The notes below the pieces were generated by a model that saw only the letters and a list, made by a program, of their open reading frames with translations, was not told where the DNA came from and did not search any database. Positions 1-64,000 of a stretch of DNA of 64,000 nucleotides are shown here, piece after piece (the first letter of the stretch is position 1; every line of letters starts with the position of its first letter). The stretch is taken from NCBI GenBank assembly GCA_023653785.1, contig JAMKCH010049055.1, positions 1 to 64,000 on the forward strand, given 5' to 3'. Origin of the DNA: Ophioderma brevispina (lineage: Eukaryota > Echinodermata > Ophiuroidea > Amphilepidida > Ophiodermatidae). A program made the translations under genes and the position numbers.

Positions 1-1260
1 ATAGATGGTTTTCTATGCCCCGTCGCATCAATTAAAGCTGCCTGCCACTAAATTGCGCTGTGTTCGATAGCGAGTGGACTGATTTGATACATTGGGAAGG
101 GTTTTCTAGAGTATTTGTACTATTTTCTTATTGTGCAGAAAGCCCCATTTTATCGGCCATGTTTGTAAAGGCCTCTTGTGGTCAGCGTGAACTACTAAAG
201 CGGCTGGCATTGCCTCTTTAAAAGTTGTCGCAGGTTTTTCATAAGCTTTCTTTCCGTTCTCTACGTCTTGGCTGGTAGGGGCTCATCTAATGAGAATAAT
301 TGGCGGAACGGGGAGTAGGGCTCTTGATAAAGAGCCACGTGTTGTCGCCACGGAAATACTAGCTGGATGCATAGAAGATCCCCCAGCGCAGGGATCTATA
401 AGATTATTCAGTCTATCTGGTAATGTGTGCGTTCGGGGAGATTTGTCTTTCATGCCTAGGCTAATATTTCCCAAGACCGCTTAGATGCGGGGGGGAACAG
501 CGCCTGATCTTGAAAAGACATGCTCATAGCGGCGTTTAGAGGCGGCAGAATATATTTGGCTAGAGCTGATTATTTGTTTTCTTAAAGCGGACAAGGCCAG
601 AAGCGGGGTTCGATTGAAGCCAGCTAAAATTTTTAAAAACGAGTTTTCCACAAACAGAGGGCGCCTAAAATACAGACACTCTCCCTAGCATAATTTGCGA
701 GGAGGGACATGTTTTCTATAATTAGTATTCCGTTTATATATGCATGACTCAAATTTCGAAGTGAAAAATAAGCGGAAGAGCTCTTCAGTTTTTTTTATAT
801 TGGCTTCTATGATTATGGATGGAATTACTGGGGATCTGCAGCTAGGCTAGATGTACTCTTTTTCTATAACTTCTTCCTTAGCTTTTGTATAGACATTGCT
901 GTTTTTTAAGTGAGGTGGTGAATGTATTAAGGTTCCTGCCGCTTTTAATATAAGGCTGCTTTTCTAAGTTCAAATTAATTTTCAGCGCTTGTTCTCGATA
1001 TATTGTTTAGTTAGCCATCGAGCTATTTTCTGCTTTTTATTCTTATTAGCTTTTTTTAATGTGGTTTTTTTTTTCTAGAAGAAATTATGGTACACACAAG
1101 GAGAGAGAGAACATTTTGATATTCAAAGTTAAACACCAATTTTTTTCCTGAGAGGGGAAATTAAGCGCGTTTTGCAGACCTGAATTTTACTTATCAGTGA
1201 GGTGGTTTTTATGCAGAGAAATTTGTAAAAGTATAAAATATGTTCTTTGTGAGGTTTTTG
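1..1260. other. Unassigned left end
   Basis: No gene can be assigned with confidence. A 64-codon plus-strand frame at 290-484 begins MRIIGG, which is how the 16S rRNA methyltransferase RsmD usually starts. The rest of the frame lacks the RsmD SAM-binding and NPPY motifs even when neighbouring frames are read, so this is only a hint. The overlapping minus-strand frame at 283-474 is no better supported. From about 700 to 1,180 the sequence is T-rich on the plus strand and shows no coding signal. The 3' flank of fbpB would be the usual place for the iron importer ATPase fbpC, but no Walker A or ABC signature was found on the minus strand. Confidence 0.3.
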
Positions 1261-1264
1261 AATG

Positions 1265-2960
1265 ATAATCATAGTTGGGATAAGCCCTAAGCAAATAAGG
1301 AAAAAGACAGCTAAAGAGCGCTTGTTCTATCATTTTCATCGGAGCAAATGTAAAATATAGGTTGAAGGGTTCAAAGTTAAAAATGGCCTTAAGATAATAG
1401 TTGCGAGAGCTCATTTAAACTCTCTATACAGGATAAGAAAGCCGGAATAAGCTTTTCTGTACGGAAGGGCAAAGGTAATTTAAAAAGGTCTATATTAGGA
1501 GTAACCCATAAGCGACCGAGTATCTAAATTCATGAATTTTACTAAGACGGATCATATAGACACCTTGCGGAATAACTAGAAAACGCTAGAGGTAGTAGTA
1601 CATAAGCAAAAACGAGGGAAGAAAAACAGCCTGTTCCGCTGAGAATAAGTCCTAATATGTAGCCCCAAAATTTTTTTTCGCTTAAATCTGCTTTCCCTTA
1701 AGAAAGAAATCTATACTGGGAAAGAGAACAATATGCCTATGGCTATAATAGTGCCGGGAATAGCAGTTAGCCTAACTGAGAAGAATCTCCTTCATTATTT
1801 CGCATAAAGAGGGTTTGTGAATCCGATTCCCAAAAAGAAGAGGGACGAAGAGCAGGCCAAAGCTAGCGGCCAGAAAAAGCCAGCAACAGACTGTTGAGCA
1901 ATATAGCTTATAAAATCTTTTCAGTTACCAATTCGAAAGTGATTTAGAACGTAGTAAAGAATAAGGAAGCAGGCAGTAGAACGGCCACGGAGATAAGCGT
2001 TATAGGTAGTAAAGTATGATCACTTGCTTGAGGGCAGTTATTTTCAATAGCCGGCGGGAGGAATAAAAGCAGCCCTCTTCTGCGCATTTGGCTTGTTTTA
2101 ATCAGGCGGCTTCGCTCTAAGTAGGAAAGCAAGATAACAATGAAGAGGGCGCCACACAGCCGTTTGCGCCGCTGCCTCAAATTCCCAAATGTCGACATAA
2201 AATTATACATACCTAAGGAAAGGTGCTAACAGCAAAGTATTAACAACGCCCAAAATCATGATCGTCTCCATTAAAACAGGGATAAGCCCACAGACTATAG
2301 CCGTATGGCCATTCCGAAAAGATGTTTAAAAAGCCCCTGAATGAACTTAAGCCGAAATTTTGGCGAACCATATCAAAGATGCGAGAATTCTAAAAAAGAT
2401 TTGCTAGCGAAAAGATAATATATAGGGGTATGAGCGTAAATGAAAGTATGAAAGCAGCTCCGTAAATACTTCTAATTTCAGGAAAAGAAATAATCGCCGG
2501 GGTATGTGAAGCCGCCAGTTACGAGACAAGCTCTGCAACAACCGCTGTAATCCCATAAATCACCCATATACATAAGCCTTATATATATAGCTTAGGGAGG
2601 GACTTATACAAGGCAGCGTAGAGCCCAAGTGAAAATTTTCCGTGCTGGAAAACTGTAGCGCGTCACTAGCCCAAGCATCTTTGATCCTAAAGGGCAAGGA
2701 AATAAGCCCAAACTAAAACATGAGACCATAAAGAATTTTTAAGATAGACTGCTAGGGTACTTGAAAGGAGATGAAGGAGTAAGCTAGTGTCTGCGAAAGG
2801 ACCGGCGTAACCCGGCTCCCCGGATTTAAAGCTATATAAAAACAGCTATAAGCGGTAGGACACGAAAGCAGTATTGAAAAACACGCCTAAAGCAAGGAAA
2901 ACAGTTCGCGCGGGAGAGAAAACTATGATAGAAGCTTTGGAACCGGCTGGAAATACCTTG
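1265..2960 (-). pseudogene. fbpB: Ferric iron ABC transporter permease FbpB, frame-disrupted
   Basis: Inner-membrane permease of a ferric iron importer (FbpB/SfuB/AfuB family), which passes Fe3+ from the periplasmic protein FbpA into the cytoplasm. Read on the minus strand with frame changes, it shows the N-terminal TYSFPAR-type segment after a membrane helix, a membrane stretch near 2,400-2,500, and the family segment METI-DFG-YFAVSTF near 2,200-2,280, split between two frames. It then shows an AAAQ-like stretch, a hydrophobic LFIVILLSYLER segment and a C-terminal FEPFNL motif near 1,370. About 1.7 kb fits the usual length of 500-560 residues with two permease halves. fbpA lies directly upstream on the same strand, as in known fbp operons. 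Many small indels interrupt it. A related ThiP-type permease is the alternative, but FbpA next door favours iron. Confidence 0.78.
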
Positions 2961-3208
2961 GGGTTTGGCACTAAAGGAGCTCGGGCGAAAAAAAAATTTT
3001 ATTCCTAGATTCCTTCATCATATATTCTTGGCCTGTATTCCTGTCTGTTCATTTCTATCTGTGTCTGTGTTGTTTTTCAAGGCAATGCATCTCTTAGCTT
3101 GAAACAGTGCTTAGTATATTTTCTTGATTAGGAATAATTTTCAGAATTGGTTAAAAAAATTAAAAATGAATTCCTAGTACCCTATTCTGTTCATTATTCC
3201 CCAAGGTT

Positions 3209-8223: not shown

Positions 8224-9934
8224 TTATCCGCCTGTTGGCCTATGCGATGGCATGTTTTCGGCTTTTTTAAGTAAGGCCGAAGTTAATAACAACACTTGAC
8301 CTTGGTTAATATCTAACCGCGTGCGGCTAAATCCTTCGCTAAAGTATTGTTTTCTTGCCGCTTTTAAATCGGCAATGGGCTGCCTTCGCTCACTTGGGTT
8401 TTTCTGAATGCAGAGCAATGCGGTCTCTGAACCCCTTGCGCGCAGCTCGCTGACATTTCATGGTTCATTAATGTATTGAAGAAAAGCATTGCTTTTGCTT
8501 TCAATAGTTTTTAGATATTGCGAGGGTTTTAGCTACCCGTTTTTTTTACGCTAGCCTAGTTATCTATATCGTGTTGACCACTCATCAGCTACCCTATAAC
8601 TTCTTCGCGTAATCTTGTACGTAGGTCGATGCAGGCGCTGTTTTTATTATCTGCCCCTAAGGTGGCCCGTTGAAGCAAGCAATTGCCCGTTTCTTATCCC
8701 CCCCCCCCCCCCCCGCCCCTGTAGCCTCAGTAGCATCTTTTGCCTTTGCTTCACTAACTTTTTACACTTTGGCAAATTTCGAAGATTTCAATGATTTGAG
8801 TCTTCCAAACGCCCCTATCTAACATAGTATCCATTTCAAATCTAGGATCTAAAATGCGCGTAATGTCGAACCATACTTTCCCTCACGAATAGCGTAAGAG
8901 TTCGTCTCGGTGTTGCGATAAGTCGTCAGGAATTCACTTAAAATTTTTCCCTGAATCGTCATATCCAATCCCCCGACTACCAACCGCAGTCAATGTCCTT
9001 TAAGAGAAATTGAGTGAAAACGGCCTGTGTCCTGCATAGCAATTTTCCCTGGTCGGTGAAGCACACGCACCGGATAATCTCGCCGGGGAACATCTGCTGC
9101 ACAGATAGGCAGAACGAGGCCAGGTCTGGCCTGTTCCGTGTGCGAGGAGCAGGCAATAGTTTTTTGAGCGTAATTCAATCGATAATTTTTTCTTGAACAT
9201 AGTTGGTTTCGTGAAGGAGTTTTTTCTCTAAGCTAACTTTTAAGGTACTCGTGTTGAAGACCCAAATCAGAGAACCTTTCTGCTTTTGTTTAAATAAAGC
9301 GCCCTCAGCTTGAAGACCTCTATATCGCTTCTCTTTTTGAGCTGCTGTCCGCTGCTGCTGAAGCGCTCGTCTTCACTATGTCGGCTTCCCGTTTAGATTG
9401 GCGGTTTTCTTTTGGAATAATCATAGATTTATCGTGAAAACAGGTTTTCTAATTCTTTTTCTGCCGTTTGTTTGCTTGAAGCTGGGAACGGTGAATTTGA
9501 CTCCGATCTATCTTTTCTTGACTTAGATTTTAAGCTTCTTCTAATTTCAGAAGGAACTTCAACTTCATCTCCTGAAGTTCATGAAACCTGTATTCCTTTG
9601 TCGAGTGCTGTTTCTGAGTTCGCTCTTTTTTTGGCTTATAGCCATATTCTTCGCTTTGTCTGCTGTATTCTTCGTTTCGTCTGCTACGTTTTTTTTTGCT
9701 CGATAGTTCATTTGATTCTGAATTTAAATCGGCTGGTTTTCCTGCTTCCTCTCTGCCCATTAGGCCGTGTTTTTGAAAACTTTTTTTTGAATGACTTTTC
9801 GTTTCGCTAGCAGATGACTGTGGTCTAGTGGATCTACCAGAACTTCCGATCTTCGTTTTTGGGTTTTGAAGTGTTTCTTTTTCGGATTCAGCTGGATACT
9901 TTATTTTAAAGAGTTTTTTGATAGTTTTAAACAT
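8224..9934 (-). pseudogene. Unidentified charged protein, frame-disrupted
   Basis: I do not recognise the family. The clearest part is a 134-codon minus-strand frame at 9,530-9,934 starting MFKTIKKLFKIKYPAES. It is very rich in Lys, Glu, Ser and Gln, with no membrane segment, and looks disordered or coiled. Downstream on the same strand the coding character continues in changing frames: another Lys/Gln/Arg-rich stretch near 9,260-9,360, a more ordered part near 8,800-9,180 (for example QDTGRFHSISLK and FLTTYRNTETNSYA), a linker interrupted by the C17 tract, and a final 64-codon frame 8,224-8,418 (ADLKAARKQYF). If these parts belong to one gene it encodes about 560 residues. A secreted or host-directed protein is possible but nothing proves it. 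Confidence 0.35.
8698..8714. repeat. C17 homopolymer
   Basis: Seventeen consecutive C, then a G and four more C. It lies inside the unidentified minus-strand gene, where it would encode a Gly run. Either a slippage tract or a sequencing artefact. Confidence 0.9.
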
Positions 9935-16080: not shown

Positions 16081-16089
16081 GAGCGCAGC

Positions 16090-18237: not shown

Positions 18238-18341
18238 ATGATATGCAGGCTCATCTGGCGAGGGACATTAAGCTAGCCTTCATCCGGATTGTTTTTTTCT
18301 AAGGCAAGCTTGCATCTTCATTTTTCATTTTAGTAGAGAGC

Positions 18342-19134
18342 ATGAGTATTCCCAGGTGTGTGTTGATTCAGGCGTAGGTGGCCTTAGGGTAGCCAAGGCT
18401 TATTTGACGCTTTTGATAACGGAATTAATCTACTTTGCGGACTCGGAGCATTTGCCATATGGAATAAACGCAAGGAAACATTATTCAGTATAGTTTAAGC
18501 AACTTTGCGCTGTTGGAAGAGCAGGGCGCCAAGCTCGATAGTTAATAGCCTGCAATACATCTACGCTTCGCTTTAGATAAGATAAAGCAAACTTTTGCAT
18601 GATAAGCGTTACGGCGTGGTGAAACACGGGGCGCGCAAAAAGCTATAGAATTCAGTGTAAAAAAGAACATAGCAGTTATCGGGACGTCTTAGAACATTGA
18701 GAGCAGATTTCTGAAAAAGAATGAAATATCTGGATGCCAATGTCAGGTCTCTGGCAAAAAGGCTTTGCCCCTTATGGTGCCAATTTATAGAGGAGGGCTT
18801 TGAAAACAAAGAGAGCCTTTGTTCTATTATCAACGGATTAAAAGGTTTTGTACAATCTGATAGATACCTGGATATTAGGCTTGCACGCATTACCCATGTT
18901 TTAAAAGATATTATAAGCAGCATGTATCCCTGGATGAAGGTCGTGGAGTCGCGGCAGCTAGCTACTGCTTTCGCTGTGGCTGCTTTATCAAAGAAAGAGC
19001 TTACATTAAGGAAAAAGAACTATGGGGGGGAAAGAGAAGAAGAGGCTAGATAGATTCGGGAGGAGCTGGAAAAAAGAAACAAAAAAGTACGGATTTATAC
19101 AAATGATGTTAATGAGGTTTTAAACGGTAAGTGA
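18342..19134 (+). pseudogene. murI: Glutamate racemase MurI, frame-disrupted
   Basis: Converts L-glutamate to D-glutamate for peptidoglycan. After the ATG at 18,342 the plus strand reads VDSGVGGLRVAKA, ELIYFADSEHLPYG and then, in a shifted frame at 18,545-18,565, IACNTST with the first catalytic cysteine. KNIAVIGT lies near 18,665-18,690. The 110-codon frame 18,721-19,053 gives RLCPLW and FIEEGFENKES. The second catalytic motif CTHYP can be read in a neighbouring frame at 18,882-18,896. The end FIYTNDVNEVLNGK stops at 19,134. Length of about 264 codons is normal. Both active-site cysteines survive despite the broken frame, which argues against a long-dead gene. Confidence 0.92.
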
Positions 19135-20526: not shown

Positions 20527-22435
20527 ATGAATAAAACAGAATTTTCGAATGAAAAAATTCGGAATTTTTTTTCAATATGCACATATAGATCATGGAAAGT
20601 CTACTTACCGTGATAGGCTTATAGAATCAACTGAGGCTGCTCCGGATAGGACTAAACAGGATTCAAATTTTAGATCGTTTGGATATAGAGAAAGAACGGG
20701 GCCCTAACCGTAAAAAAGCGCTGCTATCTCAGTAATTTACGGCATCTAAGGCGGATGCTGTGAAAAAATCCAATTACCTGCGACTCTTATCGACACGCTG
20801 TCCATGATGGATTTTATTTTAATTTCGAGGTGAAGCGTTCGCTGAATTCTTGTGAGGGAGCGCTTACTAGTGGTGGACGGAGCCAAGCTTCAAAGGCGCA
20901 AACGCTTTCTAACTTTATCTAGCTTAGAAAGTAATCTTCACATTATACCGGTTATCAATAAAATTGATCTGCCCGGCATTGAGGAGGTTCTGCGAACAAA
21001 AGAAAGCTGTATCAGGAGTTTTCAATTGAAGATGAAGAAGGTTGATTTGGTTTGTTGTTTGTTACAGTAGGCAAGAAGGCAGGGGCTTCTTTTGAATATC
21101 GAGGCTTTATTAGAGGAGAGTGATCTCCCATCCAGGCCCGCCTGATAAATCGGGTGATGGACTGCAGGCCTTGGTTTTCGATTCATTATCGACACTTTTA
21201 GGGGTCATTGTGTGTCTGTGTTCGGATTTTTTTTTTCAGGAGTATTGAACTTATGATAAGGTGAGGTTAATGGCTACAGGGAAAAGCTACGTAGTAGAGG
21301 AGCTGGGCGTGGCTGGGATTGTCCGCAAGGAAACGAATAGAATTAAGGCTGGGGAGAGGGGGGCTAGTATTCTTTCGATCAAATCCACTACCGATCTTAG
21401 AATGGGGGATACGCTTACGCATGTCGATAGAGCCTCTACTGTGCCCCTGAAGGGCTTAAGTAAGTGAAATCGATGAATCCGCTGTGTGTTTCAACCGAAA
21501 AGCGATAAAGACGCTGAATTTAAAATGAAATTAGAGAAATTAGCGCTCAACAGATGCCTCGCTTAGCTATGAGGTAGATAACTCACCGATGTTAGGTCTA
21601 GGTTTTCGCTGTGGGTTTTTAGAGGCTGCACTTGGAGATCCACGAAAGAAGAGCGGCTGAGTAAGGAATTCAATGCCGATAATATTATCACAGCCCCTCG
21701 GTGACCTATAATAAATTCTATATGAAAAATGGGGAGCCTGCAAAAGTATTACAACCAGAAAAATGCCCGCTTCCCCTCGACGGTAGCTTACATAGAGGAG
21801 CCCTTTATTAGGCGATGATAATAGTCAGCAGCTATTTGGGGAGCGAATATGGAGTTAGTTCAGCAAAAGCCGGGGGCGAGCATGGAAATTAATTATCAGT
21901 GCAGAACCGCATAGGGCCGAGTTTTTTCTTCCATTAGAAATCATCTTTGATGTTTTGATAAATTGAATCTCAACCGTGGTTATGCCTTCGTAGATAAGGA
22001 ATTCCATGATTAAGGCCTGAGGATTGTGAAGATAGATATTATAGTGAAACAAAGAAGCTGTAGATGCGCTTTCTTTATGGTTATCGCGATTTTAAAGCGC
22101 CCGCCAAAGATTATGTCATCCTAAAAAAGACTTCGCGAGAGATTCTCGGCATTATGTTTCAAATTCCACTTCAGGCGGCTATAGGGCTAAGATTATAGCC
22201 CAAGAGAAGAAAAACTATTTGGCTTTACGTAAAGATGTGGACCCGTAAATGTTACGGCGGGATTATAACTAGGAAAGCGGAAACTTTTAGAAAGCAGGGA
22301 AAGAGGGGAAAGAAAAGAATGACATCTGTTGGTAGTTGTCGATATACCGCAGAAAGAAAGCATTCCCTAAGTGTATTGAAAACCCAATGGAAAGCCCTTT
22401 CAAAAAATTTTAGCAACTATCATTTTTATCTATAG
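20527..22435 (+). pseudogene. lepA: Elongation factor 4 (LepA), frame-disrupted
   Basis: Ribosome-associated GTPase that acts on stalled or mistranslocated ribosomes. After the ATG at 20,527 the plus strand reads IRNFFSI and AHIDHGKST (the G1 loop, about 20,578-20,604), then DIEKERG, and a DTPGH-type G3 region near 20,792-20,812 that needs three indel corrections. Next come FEVKRSLNSCEGAL, IPVINKIDLPG (G4, about 20,945-20,977), ATGKSYVVEELGV (21,270 on), AGERGASILSIKS and MGDTLTH. The C-terminal LepA signature RKCYGGIITRK lies at 22,241-22,275 and RMTSVGS at 22,318. That C-terminal domain separates LepA from EF-G. About 1.9 kb equals the normal 600 residues, so nothing large is missing. Confidence 0.93.

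Positions 22436-33101: not shown

Positions 33102-35230
<2,129 letters not shown>

Positions 35231-38335: not shown

Positions 38336-38387
<52 letters not shown>
38336..38387. repeat. A52 homopolymer
   Basis: Fifty-two consecutive A directly after the DUF3467 gene, followed within 20 bases by a G8 run (about 38,401-38,408). Far longer than normal bacterial tracts. Confidence 0.95.
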
Positions 38388-38700: not shown

Positions 38701-38701
38701 T

Positions 38702-40160: not shown

Positions 40161-40164
40161 CTAG

Positions 40165-41012: not shown

Positions 41013-41037
41013 AAGTAAGTAAAAGTAGGCAAAAAAA

Positions 41038-41570: not shown

Positions 41571-41587
41571 AATTTTAAAAGAATTTA

Positions 41588-43085
41588 TGGTTAAGATTTA
41601 GATTCATATCTTAGAGAGCTAGATAGCATACGATACATGAGTGATTCACTACCTGAACTTAAGCTCTGTAGACAACTTACGAGCACCTCTGTTTTAAAAA
41701 ATTGAGTTTTCACAAATAGCCGATTCGCTTGAAAAAGCTAAGGTATTTTCTTTCATTCCGTGCAGCATATAGCTATTTTTCGCTGTTTCTGTCTCTTGGA
41801 TGGGCAGAATAATAGAATAATAAAATCAGCGTTTGCCAAGTGCAGCAATTGATGCAGAAAAAGAGAAGATGAAGGAGGAAAAGCTAGTTCGGAATTATTC
41901 TATTTGAGTAACGGTTTTTGATAAGGAATTACAAGTGGCTGTGAAGAAAGTGCCGGGGGATTGTTTTCTAGCTTCGCTAATGATGAGCTTCAGCCTGGCG
42001 ATAGCCTAGAGTTTTGCCGCCCTCTGGTTTATTCACCAACCGGCTTTTTTTCAAAGAAAAGAAGAGCTAGGATGGAGGTAGCAAGAAAAAAACTCGATTC
42101 GGCTAGCCAATGGTATCCCAAGAAATTTTTTGTCGGAAAAATCTCATTAGTAGTGTTCGCGGCTGGAAGCGGTAATAACGTCCTATTATGTCGATGATAA
42201 GACCTTTCTGGCTTATCGGTCAATCAGAAGAGCGCCTGGCGCTGTAGTTTTGTTTAAAATACGGAAATAAAAACAGTGATGATGTAGTTTAAAGAGGAAC
42301 TCACGATTTGAAAAACAACTTTATAGATAGTTTTTCGCCTCTCTTGTTTTTTTTCTCGAAGCAAGGATGTGTCGCCGCCTATATTTAAAGGGCAATTGAT
42401 AGCTGAAATTAACTCAGGTTGCCAGAGATTGGCTTTGCTCTCGCTGTATAATACAGTGGAGTATTATATCTCTGGCCCCGGTGTATGATAAGTCAATTAA
42501 GCGCGTTCTTTAGACTAAGGGATTAGCGAAAAGTGCTTAAGAAAGAGCTTTCAGTTCGCGTATTTGCGAATTCAAAAGAGTCGCTGATAAAGAAGCGATC
42601 TTGATGCCCAAGCGGCGACTAAACTAAAAAACTAAAAAATCAAAACAACGAGTAGATCTTAGTCCAGGAAATTCAGTAACTCAGCAGCTTATAACAAAAG
42701 GAGTGGGGCTGAAATTAAGGACAACGAAGGAAATGAAAGCAGGGAACTGAATATGTTGAATCGAGGGTATGAAGCTGCTGTAGATTTTTCTTTTTTTTCA
42801 AAGAACCGGATAATAGAAGTGCATAAAGCTTGGCAACCAATTCTAATTCTAGGTCCTTATTGGATTTAGCATTACAAAATTGGATTCTGCCCCATGCCTG
42901 TAGGGGGGCGTTTGCGGAACCTGCCGGGCTAAACTGATACGAGGTAAGGTTCATCAAAAAGCTGATTACGCTTTAACTGAAGCAAATGCCGAAGTCGGGG
43001 GGCAAATTTTAACTTGCCAAAGCCATCCTTTAAAGCATAACTTAGAATTGAATTTCGATTATTCCTTTAATTTAAGCTTGAAGCT
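41588..43085 (+). pseudogene. paaE: Phenylacetyl-CoA epoxidase reductase PaaE, frame-disrupted
   Basis: NADPH-dependent flavin and [2Fe-2S] reductase that feeds electrons to PaaABC. The plus strand reads KLVRNYSI (FAD-binding RxYSI) near 41,881-41,905, then LQVAVKKVPGDCFSSF near 41,931-41,975. The frame at 41,961-42,197 has DELQPGDSLEFCRP, the LxxGDxLxVxxPxGxF region. An AAGSGN segment lies near 42,160-42,178 (AAGSGITP). At the C-terminus are an AC-RGAFAEPAGLN stretch near 42,890-42,940, which holds plant-type ferredoxin cysteines, and DYALTEANAEVGGQI then LTCQSHPLKHNLELNFDY near 42,963-43,070. That is the classic PaaE end with the last Fe-S cysteine. The span of 1.5 kb is longer than the usual 1.1 kb, so some inserted sequence is likely. 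Confidence 0.85.
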
Positions 43086-43129: not shown

Positions 43130-44935
43130 AAGAAAGATATTTCATGAAGCATATAGGGTCGAATTAATTCGAGATTTTAGAGAGGACTTTATGCCAAGAT
43201 TCTGACAGAAAAAGTTAATAGAAAAACAGTGCCTATCATCAGGCTAAACTGGATGAGCTTTGCCTAGCTATCCGGAAGCGAGAATACTTTTTCATATCAT
43301 AATGAAATCCCCAGCGAAAAAATATACGGCGAGGGCGTGAAACAGCAAGCTAGATGAATTGCATTGCTCTGCAACAAAAAACATTCACTTGCGTATTGAA
43401 AAGTATCTGAGGGCCGGGGACATTGAGGGGCAGTTATGAATAAAAGAGTCTTCGTATAGCACGATGCCTTCAGCATGAAATACGCTTATAAGATCCGGAA
43501 AAATTATAAAAGAAAGAGCTAAAAAAGCTATGGCGGTTGGGTAGCTGTCATTACAGCGCGGGCATTTTTAGTTTTGGAGATTTTAGAGCGGATCAATAAG
43601 AAAAGCTTTTAAGGCACATGCATAGAGGCAATGCACTGGCCAATCTTTTGTTATGGCTTTTCAGGCTGGGGGCCGCATGCTAGCGAGCGCGGAGCGGAGG
43701 CTGTGGCTTACGCCTATACGGCCTTAAAAGAATTTCAGAGGAAAGCGGGTCTTTGGACTAAGCCGCGTGGAAAAGACAAAGCCGCCTTACAGTTAAAGAA
43801 ACACTTTATCGCTAGGACCAAGGGTATGGACATAGTTAACGTGTGCTAGTTTTACCAATTGGAATTCCTATGGTGCTATTTTCGCTAATATGCTTATAGG
43901 CGCTGCTTGTTTAGTGAAAGCGCATCAGAGGCTATTCTGCCGATAGCCTTACCGTCAGCAAGCACAGGAGGTTCTTTTAGAATACGGACATGATCCGGCC
44001 TTAATAAATTTATTGTTGTTTAATGATGATACGGCGTTGCAGACATTCTTGAAACAGCCCGACTGCGCCATTGTTGATTTTAAGCTCGCAAAAGTTTTGG
44101 CGTATGGCTAGAGGCCAATTTACCGCATGCCAGTGTTTTAACGGAAAAGTCTGGTGTTGGAACTATTCTCTTCCACTCCAGCAAGAATAGAGCAGCGGCG
44201 GTGAGAAATATAGCTAGCAGTATTTGCCTTTACTCTGGGCAGATGTGCACATCGCCGAAAAACATCTTCATCCAGAGCAGAGTTCAATGAAACCGCGACG
44301 GCTATTAGCGAAGCTATAACAGGCTTAGGGGATAATGATGCAAGGCTTAGCTTTCTAGGAGTGGATGCGCTGCCAAAGAAGAGTCTTGATGTTATGGATG
44401 AAGCCGTGGCGCTAGGGAAACTGCGGTTGGCTTCAAGAACTATTGATCATCCGTATAGAAAAGGACTGAAAACTGCATACCCCGGCATTAATAGAGATCA
44501 GTTGGCGAAACGGGCTAGCGGAATACAAAGCTCGATCAAGGAGCTCCGGTTTTTGTTAGAAAAAGATTTTTTGCTCCCGTTGTTTTTCTTATTAAAACAA
44601 AGGATATAGCAGAGAGTATGAACCTAGCGCGGCTTAGCCTGCAGAAAAGTGGGGCGATAGCTATGGGCCTCTATACTGAAGACGAAAAGGTGAAGGAGGA
44701 AGTTATTCGATTTAGCCATGCAGTTGAAAGTGAATTTATCTATCAATTTAGTAGGCCGAGGCATTGCTAAATCATTCAAATTCTTCTTTCAGTGACTTCA
44801 TAAACAGCGGCGGAAAAGGTCGGCGAAGTGTTCTATTACCTCACCAGAGTTTGTTCACAGAAGAATGCGATTATCAATCTGAAAGAGCCGGCCTTAGTTG
44901 AAATTATTTCAGCTTGCCTATTAGGGCGTAAAAAA
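43130..44935 (+). pseudogene. paaN: Phenylacetate degradation aldehyde dehydrogenase-like protein PaaN, frame-disrupted
   Basis: ALDH-superfamily enzyme found in paa clusters of many bacteria, often where the PaaZ fusion is absent; it is thought to act on the semialdehyde product of ring opening. Readable in order: AIRKREYFFPYNEIPS with KIYGEGV near 43,270-43,345, and MH-TGQSFVMAFQAGGPHAS across shifts near 43,631-43,690. ERGAEAVAYAYTALKEFQRK, FTNWNSYGAIFANM (43,850-43,895), DCAIVDF, EKSGVGTILFHSS and SLYSGQMCTSPKNIF follow. The last holds the catalytic cysteine near 44,255. FFAPVVFLIKTKDIAE and GAIAMGLYTEDE come near the end. The length of about 1.8 kb fits 550-600 residues. The catalytic Cys and Glu regions both read correctly once frames are followed. 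Confidence 0.9.
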
Positions 44936-44984: not shown

Positions 44985-45785
44985 GATGAACAAGGCAATG
45001 GCCAAAAAAAAACGATTTAAGCAGTTTCAAAAATATTCTCTGCCAAGAACCAGGCACTAGCCTTAGTTAATAGAGATAAGGCGAGAAAAAGTTAAAAATG
45101 CTTTGAATACAGAGACCCTATCGGAATAGCCGTGCCATTAGCTAGTATGAAGATCGGAGAAAAAAGTAGTCATATCCACAGGAAACAGAGGGAGATTTGC
45201 CGCCGGGAGCGGATATCAATGAACTAGCTGAGTATACCGCTGAGAGCATTCAAATGGATGAGCGAAAAAAACTCTGGGATAGAATAGCCGGTTTTTCTAA
45301 GCCGTTGATAGCGGCTATAAATGGCTACTGTTTTGGTGCTGGCTTAGAGTTGGCTCTGCGTGCTGATATTCGCTACGCTGGGGATTTCAGCGACATTTGC
45401 GCAACCGGAGATAAATTTAGGATTATGCCGGGGGCTGGTGCTGTGCAGCTTGCTTTAAGAAATATGCCTCCTAGCGTGGTGGCTGAATTTATTTTAAGCG
45501 GAAAGCGATTGTCGGCCCAGCGGGCCAAGCAAGCAGGTTTAGTTTCAGAGGTCTATCCAGCTAAGACTTTAATTTCAGAGGCAATACTTATAGCAGAGGG
45601 ATAGCGGAAAAGGAACATTTTCTGGGCCTTTAAATTTCATAAAAAAAGCGCTGCGTTTAGCTTATAAAACCGCTATCGGCAGCTTTGAAAGAAGAGCGAA
45701 CTTTATATGAAAAATTAGTCGCCTTGCCTAGAAGCTAAGGAAAATCTCGAAAATTTTCAAAAACTAAAAAAACTAATTTTGAATA
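44985..45785 (+). pseudogene. paaF: Enoyl-CoA hydratase (crotonase), PaaF-like, frame-disrupted
   Basis: Crotonase-fold hydratase, likely acting on 2,3-didehydroadipyl-CoA or an earlier ring-opened CoA ester. After VKNALNTETLSE near 45,085-45,125 the 135-codon frame 45,197-45,604 reads PPGADINELAEY, KPLIAAINGYCFGAGLELAL and FRIMPGAGAVQLAL, then AEFILSGKRLSAQRAKQAGL. These include the AGAD oxyanion-hole segment, the second oxyanion Gly in GYCFGAGLEL, and IMPGAG, whose position normally carries the catalytic Glu region. This is among the least damaged genes here. Tail frames run to about 45,780. It is the first of three crotonases in the island. The split of PaaF and PaaG roles among them is inferred from order. 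Confidence 0.86.
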
Positions 45786-45829: not shown

Positions 45830-46690
45830 CCATAAGCGTTGATTTTTGTTATGAAAAATACTTTTGATTAATTATCTCCACTCAATGATGGATGCGCGCC
45901 CGGGGTCCCTAGGATAAAGTTGAATAGGCCATAGAAGCTAGCCAGCTTTACAGAGAAGATGCATAAAGAGCTTCAAGTGGCCTTGCGCTCACGAAAAAGC
46001 TGTGCTTGAAAAGAAGTTTCTCTTTTGACCTATCACAGTCGCAGGCAGAGGGTTTTGTGCAGCCAAGATCTACGTGATAGAATGGTAAAAAAGAAAGCAA
46101 GTTAAAAAAGCCGCGCATGGCAAAGCAACGGCCGTAGACTTAGGTGCTTTGAAAAAGAATTATAATCGCTTGTTCAAGCCTTATCAATTTCCCGCAACGC
46201 CTCGCCGCTGTCAATGGTGTTGTGCCGGAGCTGGTATATCGCTGGCATTAGCTTGTGATTTGTTCTAGCGAGTAAGGAAGCCAGTTTTTTGTTTCGCCTT
46301 TTCTAAAATTGGGCTTATCCCCGATTCCGCCTGCTCGTATTTCCACTGCCTTATTTAGTAGCCTGCAGAAAGCCAGGAGCTTTGTATGCTAGGTGGAAAA
46401 ATAATCGGCAGAAGCGGTTTTGGATTTGGGGCTGATTTATCAAGATATCCGATAAAGAAGATTTTCTAGAGCCTGTCAGGATTTAGAGCACAAATTACTA
46501 GATTTGCCGTGATCGCTGGCTAGTTTTTTGGAGCCCAGAAAACCTTATTAGGAAGTCTGCATCATAGCTTTGTAAGAGCACTGGATTATGAACCGGTTTA
46601 CAGCGTTTTCGCTGCACTGGCCTGATATAAAGAAGGAGTAGCGGCTTTTTTAGCGAAAGAAAAGCGAAGTTTCGTTGATTGAGATCAGAT
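45830..46690 (+). pseudogene. paaG: Second enoyl-CoA hydratase/isomerase, PaaG-like, frame-disrupted
   Basis: Crotonase-family enzyme, most likely the ring 1,2-epoxyphenylacetyl-CoA isomerase PaaG that forms the oxepin. Plus-strand pieces: GRGFCAA-I (the FxAGxD/GxD region) near 46,040-46,070, AAVNGVVPEL near 46,206-46,235, SFLFRLF-KIGLIPDS near 46,289-46,330, and RALELCMLGGKI near 46,370-46,405. SAEAVLDLGLIYQ and DLEHKLLDLP follow near 46,407-46,510. The KIGLIPDSG-type block is characteristic of the PaaG branch, where Asp replaces the catalytic Glu. The stop region near 46,680 lies just ahead of paaH. Confidence 0.78.
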
Positions 46691-46699: not shown

Positions 46700-48410
46700 G
46701 GCTTTCAGCGTCGGTATGTAAACGGCTCTGGATCTTGGGCATAGGCATAGCGCAGTCGGCCTTAGCAGCCGGGCATAGTGTACTTCGCTACTGATCCGAG
46801 TAAATCCCTTGTTAGGAGCTTTGAAAGATATTGAAAAGGGTCTGCTTAAATTCGCTGAGAAGGGAAGAATCCAAGAGAGCGATGTACAGAAGTTGTGCCA
46901 ATCTGCAGGTTAGCCAGACAAATAAAAGAGCTCGCTTCTTTTTTTTTTTTATTGAAGTGTTTTTAGAGACAGAAACTATGCCAGTGAGCTCGAAAATTTT
47001 TCATGTGAGCTGGAAAAAATGGTTCCACCATGCTGTGTTCGGAGTTAATACCTAGGCTTTATGCAATCGGCGCTATAGCGAAGCATTTAAAATTTAAAGA
47101 TCCCAGGCTTTATCGGCATGGCATTTTTAACGCCCGCAGCATTGCAATTGAACTTAGTTGAGTAGTACAGCCGCTTAACAGCTAGCGGCTAAGGCAGCTC
47201 AGTTCAGTCTATGAACGGCTAAGGCTTGGATTACATATCCTATTTACACAGCGGATAGGCCAGGGCTTCATCGCTAACAGAGCTCTAGACCTATTACCAG
47301 AGTTCGCTTTCGCATGGCCGAGAGGCTTTGCTCTATAGCGAAATTGATACTATCGGGGCAAGATTCATGATGGGTTTTTCGCAATGGGGCGCAATTATGG
47401 AGCTTATGGATTTAATATGGCATGATGTGAATTACCCGTATCCCGGTGAATATCTATTAAATTATTTCCACAAAGATCGTTTACAGGCCCATCCTTATGC
47501 ATAGAGAGTTGCTGGAATCCGGCTTTCTAGGCAGAAAAACCGGCCGTGGTTTTTATAAATACAATAATCCGACAGAAAAATACTGCTCCACAGCAAAAAA
47601 TCACTAGGGCTGAAAAAGGAGAAGGAAGAGCCGAGCGTACCGCTGAAAACCAGAGCACTGAAATACTTTCAATAGCGCTTATTGGAAGTGTAATGACACT
47701 TTTTTATGCCAATATATCCGTATTATTAGAAGAAAATAACCTTTAAGCTCGAGTGAAGAATATGTTCATGGGATACTATATAAAACTACCGAGAGGCTTT
47801 TTTCAAAATTTATTATAAACGTAAGCGGGAATAAAATTAGCATACTTATGTCCTGCCGCGGCTGTTACATCGGAGGAAGCGGCTTTATATTCAAGAAACG
47901 TTTATTCTCATGATTAGCAGAAAACTAGGCTAAGGGGTCACTTTGTTTTTCGCTTAGCGTGATGGGCAAGGTTTGGATTATCAGAGGGATGAATTTTATG
48001 CTGACACCCTAATAATACAAAGCATGAAAATTTCCCTGCTGTAAATCAAAAAAAACAAGAAGAGACGGTTTTTGAGATATGCTTAGCCTGCTTTCTAAGA
48101 AACTTGGAAATGTGATGAGTACTATACAAGACAGCCCTGGATTAGTTAGTCTGCGCCTGCTAGCGGTGATTAAAGCAATCTGCTATTCTATGCTGGATGA
48201 CAAGGGATTACAGGCAGCTGATTTAGATGCCGCCCTTTTTTTGGGGCTACTTAACCCAAGGGGCTTTTGTCAAATTGGGCTTATTCTTTTGGCTTGCCCA
48301 TACTAAAACAAACTGTTGATAACCCTTTCAGGTATTATTATGCGCATAGATATTATCCCTGCTTTCATTACAGAAGAAATGCCAGGCGACAAGAAATAGG
48401 CTAATATAAC
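46700..48410 (+). pseudogene. paaH: 3-hydroxyacyl-CoA dehydrogenase PaaH, long form, frame-disrupted
   Basis: NAD-dependent oxidation of 3-hydroxyadipyl-CoA. The NAD-binding start reads LGIGIAQSALAAGHSV near 46,737-46,785, the GxGxMGxGIA region. FFNARSIAIEL near 47,120-47,155 matches the catalytic HFFNPxxxMxLVE block, whose His is lost in the slip. GQGFIANRALDLL near 47,260-47,300 fits GFIVNRxxxP. SGFLGRKTGRGFYKYN near 47,519-47,565 is a very clear family end for the first domain. A second C-terminal domain follows: the frame 48,079-48,306 has QDSPGLVSLRLLAVIKA and NPRGFCQIGL, matching IDxSPGLVVxRTxAMxxNEA and the NYPxGP motif. The 1.7 kb fits the 500-residue two-domain PaaH. Confidence 0.88.
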
Positions 48411-49164: not shown

Positions 49165-50505
49165 TTTAAGAGTTCTGCTATATGGAAAAGCAAAATTTTT
49201 TGAGGCTTATAGAGTAGCCTCGCGTGATGAAATGAAGTCCCTTCAGCATAGGCGTGAACAGCGGGTCTTGCATAGGTTTATGAAAACGTCCCTTTTTATA
49301 AGAAGCATTTCGATGATCATGGAGTTCATCCGGATGATTATTTGAACTTAGAAGACATTCAAAAATTTCCATTCACAGAAAAAAAAGCATTTACGAGAAA
49401 ATTATCCTTTCGGCCTTCGCTGAGCCTATGAATAGGATATGCGAATTCATGCTCCAGCGGTACTACAGAAAGCCAACGTTGTCCGGGCTTATACTAGAAA
49501 TGAATAGGATAATTGGGCTAGCGTTGTAGCTAGGTCTATTATGCATCCGGCGGGAGGCCGGGAGATATGGTCCACGTAGCCTATGGCTACGGTCTATTCA
49601 CTGGTGATTGGCGCCCATTACGGAGCCGAGAAATTAGCCTTGCACTGTGATTCCTATGTCGGGGGGGAAACAGAAAAAAACAATTACGCTTATCCAAAGA
49701 TTTTAAGCCGGATATTATTATGGTAACGCCTCGTATATGTTGAAATATGCTAGAGAATATGAACTTATGGGTATTATAGAGCCTAGGAAATGCATCTTTG
49801 GAAAAGGGGGTTATTTTTGGTGGTGGGGCTGGATGAACCTTGGACGAACCACTTCGTAGCCACATTCAAAAGAACTAGATATAGTGCGGTAGACATCTAT
49901 GGCTTTCAGAGCTTACAGCCCCGGTGTCGCTACACGATTCTTTTTGAGAAAAGGGATCTAATGTGGGGAAGATCCTTTTTATCCATCTGAAATTATCGAT
50001 AGCGATATTGCCTAAGGTATTTTGCCTATGGGTGAAACCGGCGAGTTGATTTTCACAGCTTAACAAAAGAGGGGCTATGCTTAATTCCGCTACCGCCATA
50101 GGGATTAAGTAGCTTATCAAGCAGGGCGGGCTAGAAAGTAGGCGAAAATGAAAGAATAAAATTCTCGGTTAGAAATGACGATCTGCTTATTATAGAGGAG
50201 TGAATTGTTTTCCCAGCAACAAATAGAAGAGATATTATTTTCTTTAATGACTTATGGCCAGTATTTATCAATTAGAGATCAATACTAAAGAAAGCCTGCC
50301 GCGTCTTATTAGTCATGGTAGAATTAGCGGCTCAGGCCGGCTCGCTGCTAAAGAACTAAAGCGGCCCTAACGCAGGCTCCAGTTCAAGTTTAAGATAAAA
50401 GAATTAGTAGGTCATTTCCGTTGATCCCTACACTTTCATGTGAAAAGGGAGTATAGAACGCTCTATTGGGAAAGCGAAACGGGTTATTCAAGATAAGCGG
50501 TGCGT
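49165..50505 (+). pseudogene. paaK: Phenylacetate-CoA ligase PaaK, frame-disrupted
   Basis: AMP-forming ligase that makes phenylacetyl-CoA, the entry step of the pathway. Readable in order: SRDEMKSLQH near 49,220-49,250, FDDHGVHPDDYLNLEDIQKF then PFTEKK (49,311-49,386) and NYPFGL. A damaged SSGTTGKP region lies near 49,450-49,480, then YTRNE, DNWASVVARSI, MVHVAYGYGLFTG near 49,566-49,605 and GAHYGAEKLAL. FKPDIIMVTP near 49,700-49,730, EPWTN, AVDIYGFQ, EIIDSDIA and GETGELIFTAL (50,030-50,062) follow. LLIIRGVNCFPSN near 50,182-50,220 is the C-terminal hinge region, and GKAKRVIQDKR ends it near 50,503. All core AMP-binding motifs are present once frames are followed, and length is normal. Confidence 0.93.
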
Positions 50506-50689
50506 ATCTTTTTTGATAATTACTATTTTATTTTCTTATTTTGTTATACAAAGAAATTCGGAAGCTAGAGAGATCATAAAGAGTAGGTATAGGTGGATAT
50601 AAGAATAAAGATAGATGGAATTTGAAAGAGAAACTCCTACGAAGCGCAGTTTAGTACTTTCTTTGGAATAATAACACAAGAAAAAAGCT

Positions 50690-51215: not shown

Positions 51216-51255
<40 letters not shown>

Positions 51256-51600: not shown

Positions 51601-52375
51601 TTTTAATATGGAAAAACAATTAGCGAGAAAAACGGGGGCTGTGCTGGGTTGTTGATTCAAATGCCAGAACGGCGGGAAAAATGCCCTCTCTAGTTTGCTT
51701 ATGAGGGAGCTGGCCCTTGGACTTTAGAAGGGGTAGATGGTGATGATAATTTGGCGGCTGCGGTATTAACCGGCAGTGACTCCTTTTTTTCCGCCGGAGG
51801 GATATCAAGGAAATAAAGGATATGATTTTGCAGAGCTTTAAAAGGCAAATTACATCACCGAAGCTTGGAAGTTCATTCATTGAATTTAGAAAGCCCTTTA
51901 ATAGGGGCTGTATCGGGCTATGCCTTAGGTGGTGGGCGGTGAGCTAGGCTATGCTATGTGATATACCTTCTAGCGGATGATGCGCTAAGTTCGGACAGAC
52001 GAAATCCGCATTAGGGCTTATGCCCGGAGGTGGCGGAACGCAGCGTTTAACCCGCCTTGTTGGAAAAGTCTTTAGCTATGGAAATTTGCTTAAGCGGCAG
52101 GGGTCAGCGCTGAGGAAGCCTTAAGCCATGGGCTTGTCTCAATCGGGGTTCCCCAAAGGTGAATTGATTTTGCCACGCGCTGGCTTGGGAAAAAATAGCC
52201 CGTTTCCATAAGGCCCTGTTGCGTTTGATTAAAGAGGCTATACATAAGTCCTATGAGCTTCCGCTTTTAGAGGCTTGTCAATTGGAACGCCGGATGTTTC
52301 ATGCCAGTTTAGCGCTGGCGGACTCTAAAGAAGGTAGGAAAAGCCTTTTCTAGAGAAACGAAGACCCGAAAATTC
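51600..52375 (+). pseudogene. Third enoyl-CoA hydratase (crotonase), frame-disrupted
   Basis: Another crotonase-fold hydratase. Plus-strand blocks: VDGDDNLAAAVLTGSDSFF near 51,733-51,790 with the following AGGI, at the AGADI oxyanion site. LIGAVSGYALGGG near 51,901-51,939 contains the second oxyanion glycine. ALGLMPGGGGTQRLTRLVGK is approached across shifts near 52,010-52,065, then SLAMEICLSG. KEAIHKSYELPLL is legible near 52,230-52,268, and LERRMFHASLALADSKEG near 52,280-52,335 closes the family C-terminus. Length is normal at about 255 residues. It sits after paaX and before the liv genes, so it may be a PaaF-type hydratase. Having three crotonases is common in paa islands. Confidence 0.85.
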
Positions 52376-60380: not shown

Positions 60381-60570
60381 CTTACCAGAATGCATGACTA
60401 CTGGCCAAAGCGCCTCTTTTTTCCACTTAAATTTTAAAATCTAAATAACACTGGCGGGCGCCGGAAAGGGGAAAACACCCCTTGTGGAGAGAGTAAGCCT
60501 TTTATTGGCGAAGGCATCCGCTATCGGAACAGCCTTTAGAGCGGTTTAAAGAATTGAAAACTGGAAACTA
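60380..60570 (+). pseudogene. P-loop fragment, possibly LpxK N-terminus
   Basis: From about 60,450 the plus strand reads an N-TGGAGKGKTPLVERVSLLL segment, a P-loop. The GKTPLVE form after a beta strand is typical of tetraacyldisaccharide 4'-kinase LpxK (VGNxxxGGxGKTPxxxxLA), the lipid A kinase. The short stretch before it (MHDYWPKRLFFPL) could be the LpxK membrane-proximal start (PxFW). No later LpxK motif, such as the DDGLQ or PAGPLRE blocks, was found before argH. A tandem repeat follows where the middle of the protein should be. Other P-loop proteins remain possible. Confidence 0.35.
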
Positions 60571-60940
60571 TATTAATTTCAGGATACACCAGCTCGCGAA
60601 GATAAGCCGAGCGAGATCTCTCTTCTCCCCTACTTAGTTTTTTTTTTAGAAAAAGAAATGCAGAGTCTGTAGAAAGCTCTCAAAATGGAACTATTTAATT
60701 TCAGGATACCACCAGCTAAGACGCGAAGATAGCCGAGCTGAGGCTCTCTGGCTTATTCTCTTAGGGGTTTTTTTATGAAAGAAATGGCAGAGTCTGTAGA
60801 AGAGCTCTCAAAATGGAACTATATAATGTCAGGATACACCAGCTCAGCGAAGATAGCCGAGCTGAGCTCTCTGCTGCATTTTCCTACTAGTTTTTTTATG
60901 AAGAAATGGCAGAGTTCTGTAGAAACGCTCTCAAAAAGTT
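60562..60940 (+). repeat. About 120-bp tandem repeat, three copies and a partial
   Basis: Copy one runs about 60,562-60,650 (partial), copy two 60,651-60,775, copy three 60,776-60,898 and a partial fourth 60,899-60,940. Shared features in order: a caga-gtctgtaga-agctctcaaaa head, ggaactata, a tcaggatacaccagct block, gaagatagccgag, and a T-run. In copy three one frame is open through the unit (EMAESVEELSKWNYI, then GYTSSAKIAELSS). Each unit contains an inverted repeat around gaagatagcc. Copies differ mostly by single-base indels. Confidence 0.85.
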
Positions 60941-61039: not shown

Positions 61040-62440
61040 CACTTTTCAGCCAATTTTATTTGTTTTCTCACCGAGTTGGCGGAAGTAGAGCCCTGCAGAT
61101 TCTTATTTTCGCAAATATGTTCTACGTGAATGCCCTTAAATACCTGTTTCAAAAAGTTTAGAAATTTCGCCAGTCGGCTAAACTAAATCTCAAAACCTGA
61201 TCCGGTTCTTCTAAATGTTGACAATAGCCGATGATATCCCATGCGCTTTTCCTAAGGGGCAGGCCTTTTTTCACGAGGTAATCGGCTGCATCGGTATCGG
61301 CAACGTAGCCTTTTTTTAAGCATTTAGGCAGGCAGCCTTATCCACTTGCATACTTGCAATAAAGAATTCAGTAATCAGTTTGCGAGCAGTGTCGCAACTG
61401 CATCGAAGAGGCCCTCTTTGTCTTCCTGCAAATCGCGATTTTGTAGGCCAATGGCACGGCCTTTCATACGGTCAGCATAGAAAGCAGGCTCCCATAGACG
61501 CGACCTGTTTTACCGCGCATCAGCTCAAGAGCATAGGGGGGATTTTTCTTGTTAGGGCATAATAGAGTTCCAGTAGCGTAGCACTCGCTTATTTTAAAAA
61601 ACTGCAGCGGCTATTATGGTAGAGAATGCTATCTTCGGCCAGCCTGATATATGCATCATAATCATAGAGCGCTGAAAGGGATGCTATAATAAAAATCTCT
61701 ATCTGAACACGGAATCCATAGCATTGGTGAGGTAGAACTCTCAAAGCCAAGTGCTAGCCCTGTTCATGTTTCAGTTATGATGGCGTAATTTAAACCCGCC
61801 CAAGGACCCTGCCAGGGGGTGTCTGTTCACACGTTTACGGAGGATCGAATAAGCGTTCTATATCTCTGTGACACCACTAAAAAAATAAGCAAGCAATAAA
61901 AACCACGCGAATAGGCGTGCTTGCTATTTGAACAAAAATGGGTGTAGCCGCGTAAAGAGAATTGCCTATGCTCCTTAGCTTTCTGCAGAAGGTTTCCAGA
62001 GTAGTAGCCTGCTGAGTAACCCCAGCTGAGAAGCTACCGAGGCGCGTACAAAAAGCCCGCATGCAGAATTCACCTGTTCATTACGGGACCGCGCTGTATG
62101 CAGGCGGCGGCCATCGGCTACAACGATTTTTCACCTGGCGCTTTCCACCAACATATGAATATGTCTAACTGCTGGTGAATGGAACTAGGTCTCGTTACTA
62201 TCCTGGCAGTATAGCGCAGAGGCCTTCGTTAGGTAGCGGCCGCTTTTCTTTGATATAATGCTGTTTTAGCCCGCATGGCTAGTGAGCTAAAGAGCCCATT
62301 ATATCAAAGCGGTATAAAATCTTTATCAAAGGGTAGGGATGAATGAAAATTTGCTGATTTCATCCGTCGTAGCTTGAAGCGTTTGACCAAAGCGCTTGGC
62401 TTGATTTTCTAGCTTTAGCTTTAGTGTTCGTATTAGTTTT
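61040..62440 (-). pseudogene. argH: Argininosuccinate lyase ArgH, frame-disrupted
   Basis: Splits argininosuccinate into arginine and fumarate, the last step of arginine synthesis. On the minus strand, YRFDIMGSLAH lies near 62,290-62,320 (YxxDIxGSxAH). DIHMLVE-type and GRRLHTARSRNEQV segments follow near 62,085-62,145, which include the HTARSRNDQV motif. The signature [19 protein letters not shown] near 61,500-61,560 corresponds to GSSxMPQKKNPDxxELxRGKxG, followed by [19 protein letters not shown] and ICRKTK. The end reads YVADTDAADYLVKKGLPLR and SAWDIIGYC near 61,210-61,300, the ATDLADYLVxKGxPFRxAHxxxG block. Length of 1.4 kb is normal. nadB diverges from it. Confidence 0.93.
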
Positions 62441-62735
62441 AGTATTAGCATAGTTTTTTTTCATGTTAATACTATAGCATAAATGTTGGAAATCAGCCTA
62501 AGGTTTGGAAAGAATTTGGAAAGAATTGGCGGGGCTTGAAAAATTAAAAAACGAAGAGAAAGAGGAGGCAAGAGAGTTCGTACAAAAAAAAATTTTCTCC
62601 TGAAAGCAAAAGCGAAGCGAAAGACACGGAAAATCGACATATATTAATATCCATACAAGATAAAGGAATTCAGAAGAGGAGAATATAGGGAAAAATATAC
62701 CTTAATGAAAGTAAATAATAGTGGGGATGAATGCC
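62441..62735. other. Divergent intergenic region argH/nadB
   Basis: AT-rich with no coding signal. It should hold promoters for both genes, but no operator-like palindrome (for example an ARG box) was convincing. Confidence 0.4.
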
Positions 62736-62739
62736 GGAT

Positions 62740-64000
62740 AACGGCTTGCTATTACCGCGGATGGAAACTGGGTCAAGGGTTGTTGGTTTTTTAGCTAAGA
62801 ATGAATCTAAGCTCGGGCTCTGCGGTCAGCTTGGGCGCAGGTGGGGATAGCTTCGCTTAAAGAAGATAGTAACGCCCGAGGGAGATTAGAGGCTGATATA
62901 AGTGCGGCTTGCCGATGGGCTGGCGCAACGAAAAAAGACTGGTGCGTTTTTTGCTCGCGAAGGGCCAAAAAAAATTTGTTGAAGAGTTTCTGATACGAAA
63001 TAATAGCGTCCTTCAAGCGAGAAAAAAGAGATTGGAGCGCCATTCCTTTGATTAACTCGTGAGGCTGCACATAGTAAAAAACGTATCTTATTTTCGGTGG
63101 GTGATTAATACGGCTTGTTAGTATAGGCGTATTCAAGCGGAATTCAAAAAAAACAGCTCGATTAAAAATCCTGCCAAGACATATAGCTTTAGATCTTATT
63201 AGGATCCCCAATAATAGCAAAGATCCAAGGGCGGTTTAGTGAAAAAACACTCAATGTATTGGAGGGAGGTATTGACGCCTTGATATGAAAACAAAAAAGG
63301 GTGATATTTTTTTTGCTGTAAATAATCTTAGATACGGGGGGTTATTGGTCCAATATAGAAGCAGACCAGTAACACTTGCTGGCAAAGCACTGGAGATGGA
63401 ATTGCCTTGGCCTTTCAGGTTGGCGCTTAGGATCATCAACATGGAATCACACAATTTCATCCTTACAGTATTGGCGCATAAGGGAAAGCCAATGTTCTAT
63501 ATCAGAGGCGCTCGGGGCGAGGGTGGAAAAGTCTCATGAAGATGGATAGAGTTTGTTAAAAGATTACGATGTAGAGCCTCGTTAGCACCAGGATATATAC
63601 AGAGCTATATTGCGAGGAGCAAATGAAAAAAACATCTGAAATCATTTTTATTTAAACATGGTAACTTTAAACCTTCGATATTTTTGCAGAAAAGATTTCC
63701 ACCCATTATAGAGGTCAATCTTTAGGATTACTATACGAAACAAGCTATTCCTATTACACCAGCTTTCAATTATGTTGTGGAGTGAATTTGACGGATATTC
63801 AGGGCCAAACCTGTTACCAAACTATTTGCTAATTGGGCGAGTGTGCTTGTACTGGTGGCTGGGGCTAACCGCTAGCTTACATCGCTTTAGAGGCCATACT
63901 TTTTGGCAGAAAGGCCTTGCATTGTTGTAGAAGAAATCATGATAAAAAGGCCTTTGAGGAATGAAAACCACATATAGATGACTGGAAGTATAAAGCAGAG
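62740..64000 (+). pseudogene. nadB: L-aspartate oxidase NadB, frame-disrupted, 3' end at window edge
   Basis: FAD enzyme that oxidises aspartate to iminoaspartate, the first step of NAD synthesis from aspartate. The plus strand reads SAWAQVGIASLKEDSNAR at 62,824-62,878 (SxxAQGGIAAxxxxDDS) and LEADISAAC. STGDGIALAFQVGA lies near 63,387-63,430 (the TGDGIAxAxRAGA FAD region) and TQFHPYSI near 63,450-63,475 (QFHPT). The next frame gives MFYIRGARGEGGK (LISEAVRGEGGxL). FLQKRFPPIIEVN lies near 63,683-63,721 (FxxxxRFPxIxxxC), and AIPITPAFNY near 63,743-63,773 is the substrate-binding PIPVxPAxHY with His lost in the slip. GECACTGGWGANRLAS follows near 63,838-63,880, the catalytic GExAxTGxHGANRLASNSLLE. 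The gene continues to or past the edge. Confidence 0.92.

Follow-up and report, generated by a model that had tools for sequence, protein, structure and literature searches.

The window, by which we mean the whole 64,000-base stretch analysed here (bases 1-64000 of contig C49000, 110,686 bases), raises the question of why genes that are recognisable as bacterial are broken in frame. Searches with E. coli proteins (tblastn) placed lepA, ftsY, katG, paaA-H, paaK, argH and nadB in it, NCBIfam matches added pieces of murI and paaN, and one tRNA-Ser is present. The longest open reading frame (ORF) started by ATG, GTG or TTG in the 64 kb has 173 amino acids (aa), and no stop-free frame of 200 aa was found in eleven 10-kb blocks covering 110,000 of the 110,686 bases of the contig. 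Our results indicate that the broken genes are almost certainly a product of sequencing and assembly and not of biology, i.e., insertion and deletion (indel) errors lying over an ordinary bacterial chromosome.

Some breakage affects all the recognisable genes examined in the window, which by itself would fit a decaying symbiont, in which neutral mutation breaks genes during genome reduction. The distinction was sought in the rates of insertion, deletion and substitution, which were counted protein-to-DNA because no close DNA relative was found (a scan of genome contigs with a piece of PaaF gave 43 loci with a best identity of 43%, and a protein search a best of 52%), so that synonymous substitutions are invisible to the count. 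The model, a pair hidden Markov model (pair-HMM), leads from a guide residue to a residue through a mixture of identity and BLOSUM62, then to a codon, and then to letters via a channel of insertion, deletion and substitution. The window and the two genes fitted most closely are:

1..64000, no strand: left 64 kb of C49000, bacterial DNA with probable indel errors (assembly placement, composition, frame scan)
20549..22396, plus strand: lepA, broken (tblastn and pair-HMM fits)
33133..35237, plus strand: katG, broken, the sole KatG in the assembly (tblastn and pair-HMM fits)

With the closest guides (protein P0241 for katG and P0121 for lepA), insertion and deletion per base were 0.021 and 0.033 in katG and 0.033 and 0.037 in lepA, while substitution at the better optimum was 0.027 and 0.0125, respectively (for katG the optimum of 0.027, with a log-likelihood (lnL) of 917.0, was used over that of 0.012, with 915.0). 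The count of indels and substitutions against close homologues that the initial annotation had proposed thus gave an excess of indels in both genes. Indels hit 84/725 codons in katG, one per 26 nucleotides (nt), and 91/601 in lepA, one per 20 nt, which bears out its description of indel-dominated frame breaks over consensus protein; 54 of the katG hits were deletion-type and 30 insertion-type, and those of lepA 49 and 42. In-frame stops among clean codons numbered 1/641 in katG and 0/510 in lepA (0/634 and 2/537 with E. coli guides, with which the hit codons were nearly all 2 or 4 bases long). Fixing substitution at 0.06 cost 3.6 lnL in katG and 6.6 in lepA, fixing it at 0.12, about twice the indel rate, cost 23 and 27, and fixing it at 0.20 cost 66 and 67. 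Modest substitution error is allowed by these fits, and substitution-led decay is rejected. The estimator itself returned 0.000 substitution, 0.001 insertion and 0.000 deletion for an intact lepA piece; in three simulated raw-like copies the indels came out near the truth and substitution at 0.000 in all three for a true 0.01, in three decay-like copies (true substitution 0.15) the estimates were 0.106-0.129, i.e., 14-29% low, and in three equal mixtures (true substitution 0.05) they were 0.029-0.050.

The position of the changes along the proteins tells two processes apart. Residue changes at clean codons rose from 21/234 (9.0%) in invariant columns to 33/38 (86.8%) in the most variable ones in katG (p 1.7e-33), and from 7/106 (6.6%) to 84/106 (79.2%) in lepA (p 3e-33). 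Indel-hit codons, on the other hand, made up 25/259 (9.7%) of invariant and 10/48 (20.8%) of the most variable columns in katG, and 17/123 (13.8%) and 23/129 (17.8%) in lepA, both leaning to variable columns without significance, the p values being 0.14 and 0.27, respectively (Mann-Whitney). Since residue changes track conservation and indels barely do so, the residues evolved under selection, whereas the indels fell nearly at random. Thus, substitutions do not outnumber indels, and conserved sites are spared by residue changes and not clearly by indels, the opposite of what had been named in advance as the mark of decay.

The decisive control lies outside the contig. Intact frames reach 1066 aa in other bacterial contigs of the assembly. 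Among these, C20659 is mosaic: open frames of 200 aa cover most of its 2-kb bins, interrupted by broken stretches at 14,949-22,260 (7.3 kb), 38,642-41,537 and 47,945-50,619. The first of these starts within the rpoB-rplL-rplJ-rplA-rplK-nusG-tuf cluster, in which rplA, rplJ and the N-terminal half of rpoB showed zero insertion, deletion and substitution (rplL was left out of the fits), and tuf showed 0.085 insertion, 0.043 deletion and 0.000 substitution, with 88/394 codons hit and no in-frame stop. The damage to nusG resembles that of tuf, and rplK has, in addition, a substitution rate of 0.043 and, among its 117 clean codons, 2 in-frame stops. EF-Tu is indispensable to the cell. Because EF-Tu, L11 and NusG are broken beside flawless rplA, rplJ and rpoB, gene decay is no explanation for this cluster, as decay would not end at rplA. 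C4889 is patchy too, with clean and broken stretches, and its lepA carries 1.3% indels. Long intact frames are also found in C64935, C19626 and C65472, which together with C4889 and C20659 have a GC content of 34-37%; by eye we take all five to be Bacteroidota-like, and C20659 and C4889, from their proteins, to be presumably flavobacterial.

The remaining genes of the window, with their fits where these were made, extend the comparison beyond katG and lepA:

18302..19050, plus strand: murI (glutamate racemase), broken, extent approximate (motifs, NCBIfam match of the piece 18302-18490, weak fit)
24957..25819, plus strand: ftsY, broken (tblastn, pair-HMM fit, NCBIfam)
32799..32887, minus strand: tRNA-Ser (TGA), recognisable
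38816..39634, plus strand: paaA, broken (tblastn, pair-HMM fit)
40000..43059, plus strand: paaB, paaC, paaD and paaE, broken (tblastn, pair-HMM fits, paaD without a fit)
43947..44767, plus strand: paaN pieces (TIGR02288 on 3/3 pieces)
45170..45604, plus strand: paaF, 144 aa open, about 2% indels across the gene (ORF, pair-HMM fit)
45902..46673, plus strand: paaG, broken, substitution estimate equal to the indel estimate (tblastn, pair-HMM fit)
47355..48383, plus strand: paaH, broken (tblastn, pair-HMM fit)
49217..50506, plus strand: paaK, broken (tblastn, pair-HMM fit)
51724..52335, plus strand: second crotonase-family gene, broken (tblastn, pair-HMM fit)
61227..62160, minus strand: argH, broken (tblastn, pair-HMM fit, NCBIfam)
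63351..63773, plus strand: nadB match, the gene continuing past the window (tblastn, pair-HMM fit)

With E. coli guides, katG, lepA, argH, paaA, paaK and paaG gave 0.000-0.059 substitution, 0.016-0.033 insertion and 0.025-0.045 deletion, and forcing indels to 0.003 lost 19-47 lnL in all six. Ten further fits were attempted, from which paaZ was dropped as its guide failed to align (lnL 5.2); the nine usable ones gave 0.000-0.026 substitution and 0.021-0.116 total indels, several on weak alignments, with a low lnL (23-53) for murI, paaB, paaE and paaH. Substitution was below indels in 14/15 usable gene fits and equal to them in paaG (0.059), which is the pattern that a decaying gene might leave. 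The claim that essential and optional genes are equally damaged holds roughly, with total indels per base of 0.070 in lepA, 0.055 in ftsY and in katG, 0.049 in paaA, 0.060 in paaK and 0.078 in argH, and departs from the data at paaF (0.021); the values for murI (0.116) and nadB (0.090) come from distant guides and are unreliable. In paaF (45170-45604), where indels are about 2%, the noise level differs from elsewhere along the contig, a variation that is perhaps tied to read depth. Real pseudogenisation is therefore very improbable: substitution-led decay loses in likelihood, conservation at the clean codons still follows that of a selected gene, the damage in lepA and ftsY is as great as in katG and the paa genes, and EF-Tu, L11 and NusG are damaged in the same way elsewhere in the assembly.

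The consensus motifs reported for these proteins were mostly recovered: IRMSW of KatG is in frame at 33364, IACNT and CTHYP of MurI at 18545 and 18882, AHIDH...GKST of LepA at 20579-20605 and NKKNP of ArgH at 61539-61553 on the minus strand. GTYR and HAPGT were absent from every single frame of the window, the KatG motif reading in a single frame only up to HAP, as is expected where the frame changes there. Stop-free pieces matched NCBIfam in 3/3 cases for PaaN_2, 1/2 for glutamate racemase, 1/2 for FtsY and 1/1 for ArgH; E. coli MurI gave no tblastn match. A 115-aa piece at 31487-31837 (minus strand) matches the DUF4011 anti-phage protein Hhe family (1.1e-15), and a large defence-type gene may lie under the noise there.

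Residues that remain conserved across frame changes are also what frequent programmed frameshifting, as in some ciliates, would produce if the frames were real. We regard this explanation as practically negligible, given that katG and lepA carry 84-91 hit codons each, of both the insertion and the deletion type, that other bacterial contigs alternate clean and broken stretches, and that tandem copies within the window, which serve as an internal replicate, differ among themselves by indels:

60555..60935, plus strand: tandem triplicate of a 123-base unit, internal replicate (self-alignment)

Under four match-reward schemes the pairings of the triplicate gave 3-11 substitutions vs 10-17 gap events, and in 10/12 scored pairings there were no fewer gap events than substitutions. 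In simulations the same outcome occurred in 0/100 substitution-led, 95/100 indel-led and 31/100 equal-mixture trials. The blastn self-matches of the array showed 29 mismatches and 20 gap openings in one case and 7 and 13 in another. A further repeat pair of C49000, at 105252-105700 outside the window, is ambiguous, with 14-22 substitutions vs 14-21 gap events, and 22 mismatches and 12 gap openings by blastn.

A third possibility is that bacterial DNA was transferred long ago to the eukaryote's chromosomes and decayed there. The contig does belong to a eukaryote-sized assembly, whose 2,514,598,782 bases in 65,844 contigs (2.51 Gb) are far beyond the size of one bacterium, and its poly-A runs of 34-62 bases could pass for retroelement tails. 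The CpG observed/expected ratio, however, is 0.81-0.99 in 4-kb bins of the window and 0.76-1.00 across the whole contig, vs 0.41-0.66 in four 2-kb bins of the host-like contig C11323, a single yardstick termed so solely from its composition and absence of long frames, and the excess of TG and CA seen in C11323 is absent from C49000. GC skew is above 0 in 16/16 bins of the window, and the indel-led spectrum argues in the same direction. The ends of C49000 were covered by composition and by a query of its first 3000 bases, which returned a self-match and nothing else in the assembly. A search with window bases 30001-40000 (two candidates, one scored) gave one 33-base match, on contig C24268; these searches, incomplete as they are, showed no second copy of the stretch, and KatG family matches were confined to C49000 (4 places from 5 candidates). 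C24268 has 51% GC and overlapping frames, one of which may be reverse-transcriptase-like, to judge from a motif.

Homopolymers bear on the same rival. With a minimum length of 11 for A/T and 8 for C/G, 22 runs occur in the 110.7 kb of C49000, and three of those in the window are long:

8698..8714, plus strand: 17-C run, probably read noise (association seen on other contigs)
38336..38387, plus strand: 52-A run, probably read noise (association seen on other contigs)
51221..51254, plus strand: 34-A run, probably read noise (association seen on other contigs)

Outside the window, C49000 holds a pure 62-A run at 80858-80919 and a 35-T run at 92023-92057. In C20659 and C4889 together, 12 runs fall in 40.9 kb of broken stretches and 1 in the other 83.0 kb, an association whose p value of 1.5e-5 is only indicative, as the cut-offs for runs and the criterion for calling a stretch broken were chosen after seeing the data. 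Because 12/13 runs thus lie in the broken parts of these two bacterial contigs, poly-A runs were not taken for retroelement tails. In the window, the 52-A and 34-A runs are probably the same noise. Since runs track broken stretches in bacterial contigs and CpG depletion is lacking, an old nuclear insertion appears even less probable than pseudogenisation.

Sequencing and assembly errors would act as follows. An ordinary bacterial chromosome would have entered a eukaryote-sized assembly and been reported there almost or wholly uncorrected by consensus. Noisy single-molecule reads, in which single bases are added or lost and, less often, substituted, would displace the reading frame at intervals of a few tens of bases, with the genes themselves whole in the organism. 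The likeliest platform is PacBio continuous long read (CLR). Its reads of E. coli, as given in PMC6588853, carry 9.42% insertion, 3.86% deletion and 1.27% substitution, a profile to which tuf of C20659 is close, being indel-dominated with few substitutions. The window, with 2-3% insertion, fails this single-pass profile (about 9% insertion, 4% deletion and 1% substitution), which only C20659 tuf fits; it is therefore likelier to be a consensus built from very few reads than a raw read. In other papers, another CLR data set has 2.9% insertion, 8.8% deletion and 5.0% substitution (PMC5964698), and nanopore reads have 1.1-2.4%, 1.6-2.7% and 1.2-2.2%, respectively (PMC8486125). Because the published spectra vary, the platform is likely, without proof. 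We infer that C49000 was read at a depth of one to a few, that it was left unpolished, and that its genes are intact in the living cell. The first interpretation of the window as raw long-read sequence and not decay thus stands as regards read error, by the spectrum, the conservation pattern and C20659, whereas "raw" gives way to a thin unpolished consensus, as suggested by the 5-7% indels in katG and lepA, a level below that of single-pass CLR. A literature search on thin-coverage consensus found no paper. Indel errors, often at homopolymers, are described in PMC12007338 (citing Watson and Warr) as breaking frames into false pseudogenes; there, as here, short insertions and deletions fragment genes in long-read assemblies, but residual errors are below 0.05% of polished bacterial assemblies vs 5-7% indels in katG and lepA, and those are bacterial assemblies, not a bacterial contig in a eukaryote-sized one.

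Several points weigh against read error as the cause, or against its details. The katG indel hits do lean to variable columns, non-significantly, and the invariant columns that changed (21/234 and 7/106) may reflect real divergence or misplaced breaks. paaG keeps substitution level with indels. Under a scheme without match reward the triplicate gives 13-17 substitutions vs 8-14 gap events, and substitutions exceed gap openings in 2/3 listed blastn repeat self-alignments. Insertion in the window is well below that of single-pass CLR, hence the platform and the depth are not read directly from the data, and the CLR spectra themselves disagree between papers (PMC6588853, PMC5964698).

As to which bacterium lies beneath, the noise may cover the entire chromosome of an undescribed bacterial lineage that has a phenylacetate (paa) pathway and lived with or on the sequenced eukaryote, a tentative proposal that we rate slightly short of an even chance. 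Among the matches listed, LepA reached 59% to one protein and then 48% or less, and KatG 60% at best, both lowered by X in the query, and PaaF had none above 52%; at clean codons LepA is 77% identical to P0121 and KatG 73% to P0241.

Purported bacterial pseudogenes could be technical artefacts, according to PMC11017572, which deals with annotated bacterial genomes, while here the contig lacks annotation and lies among eukaryotic ones. Setting indel hits and residue changes against conservation distinguishes read error from decay and requires no reads; it is applicable to any suspect contig with homologues. Pipelines for pseudogenes and genome reduction can be fooled by such sequence when run on bacterial contigs in eukaryote assemblies; for this bacterium, the caution that nothing be inferred about genome reduction is upheld, the breaks being a product of sequencing.

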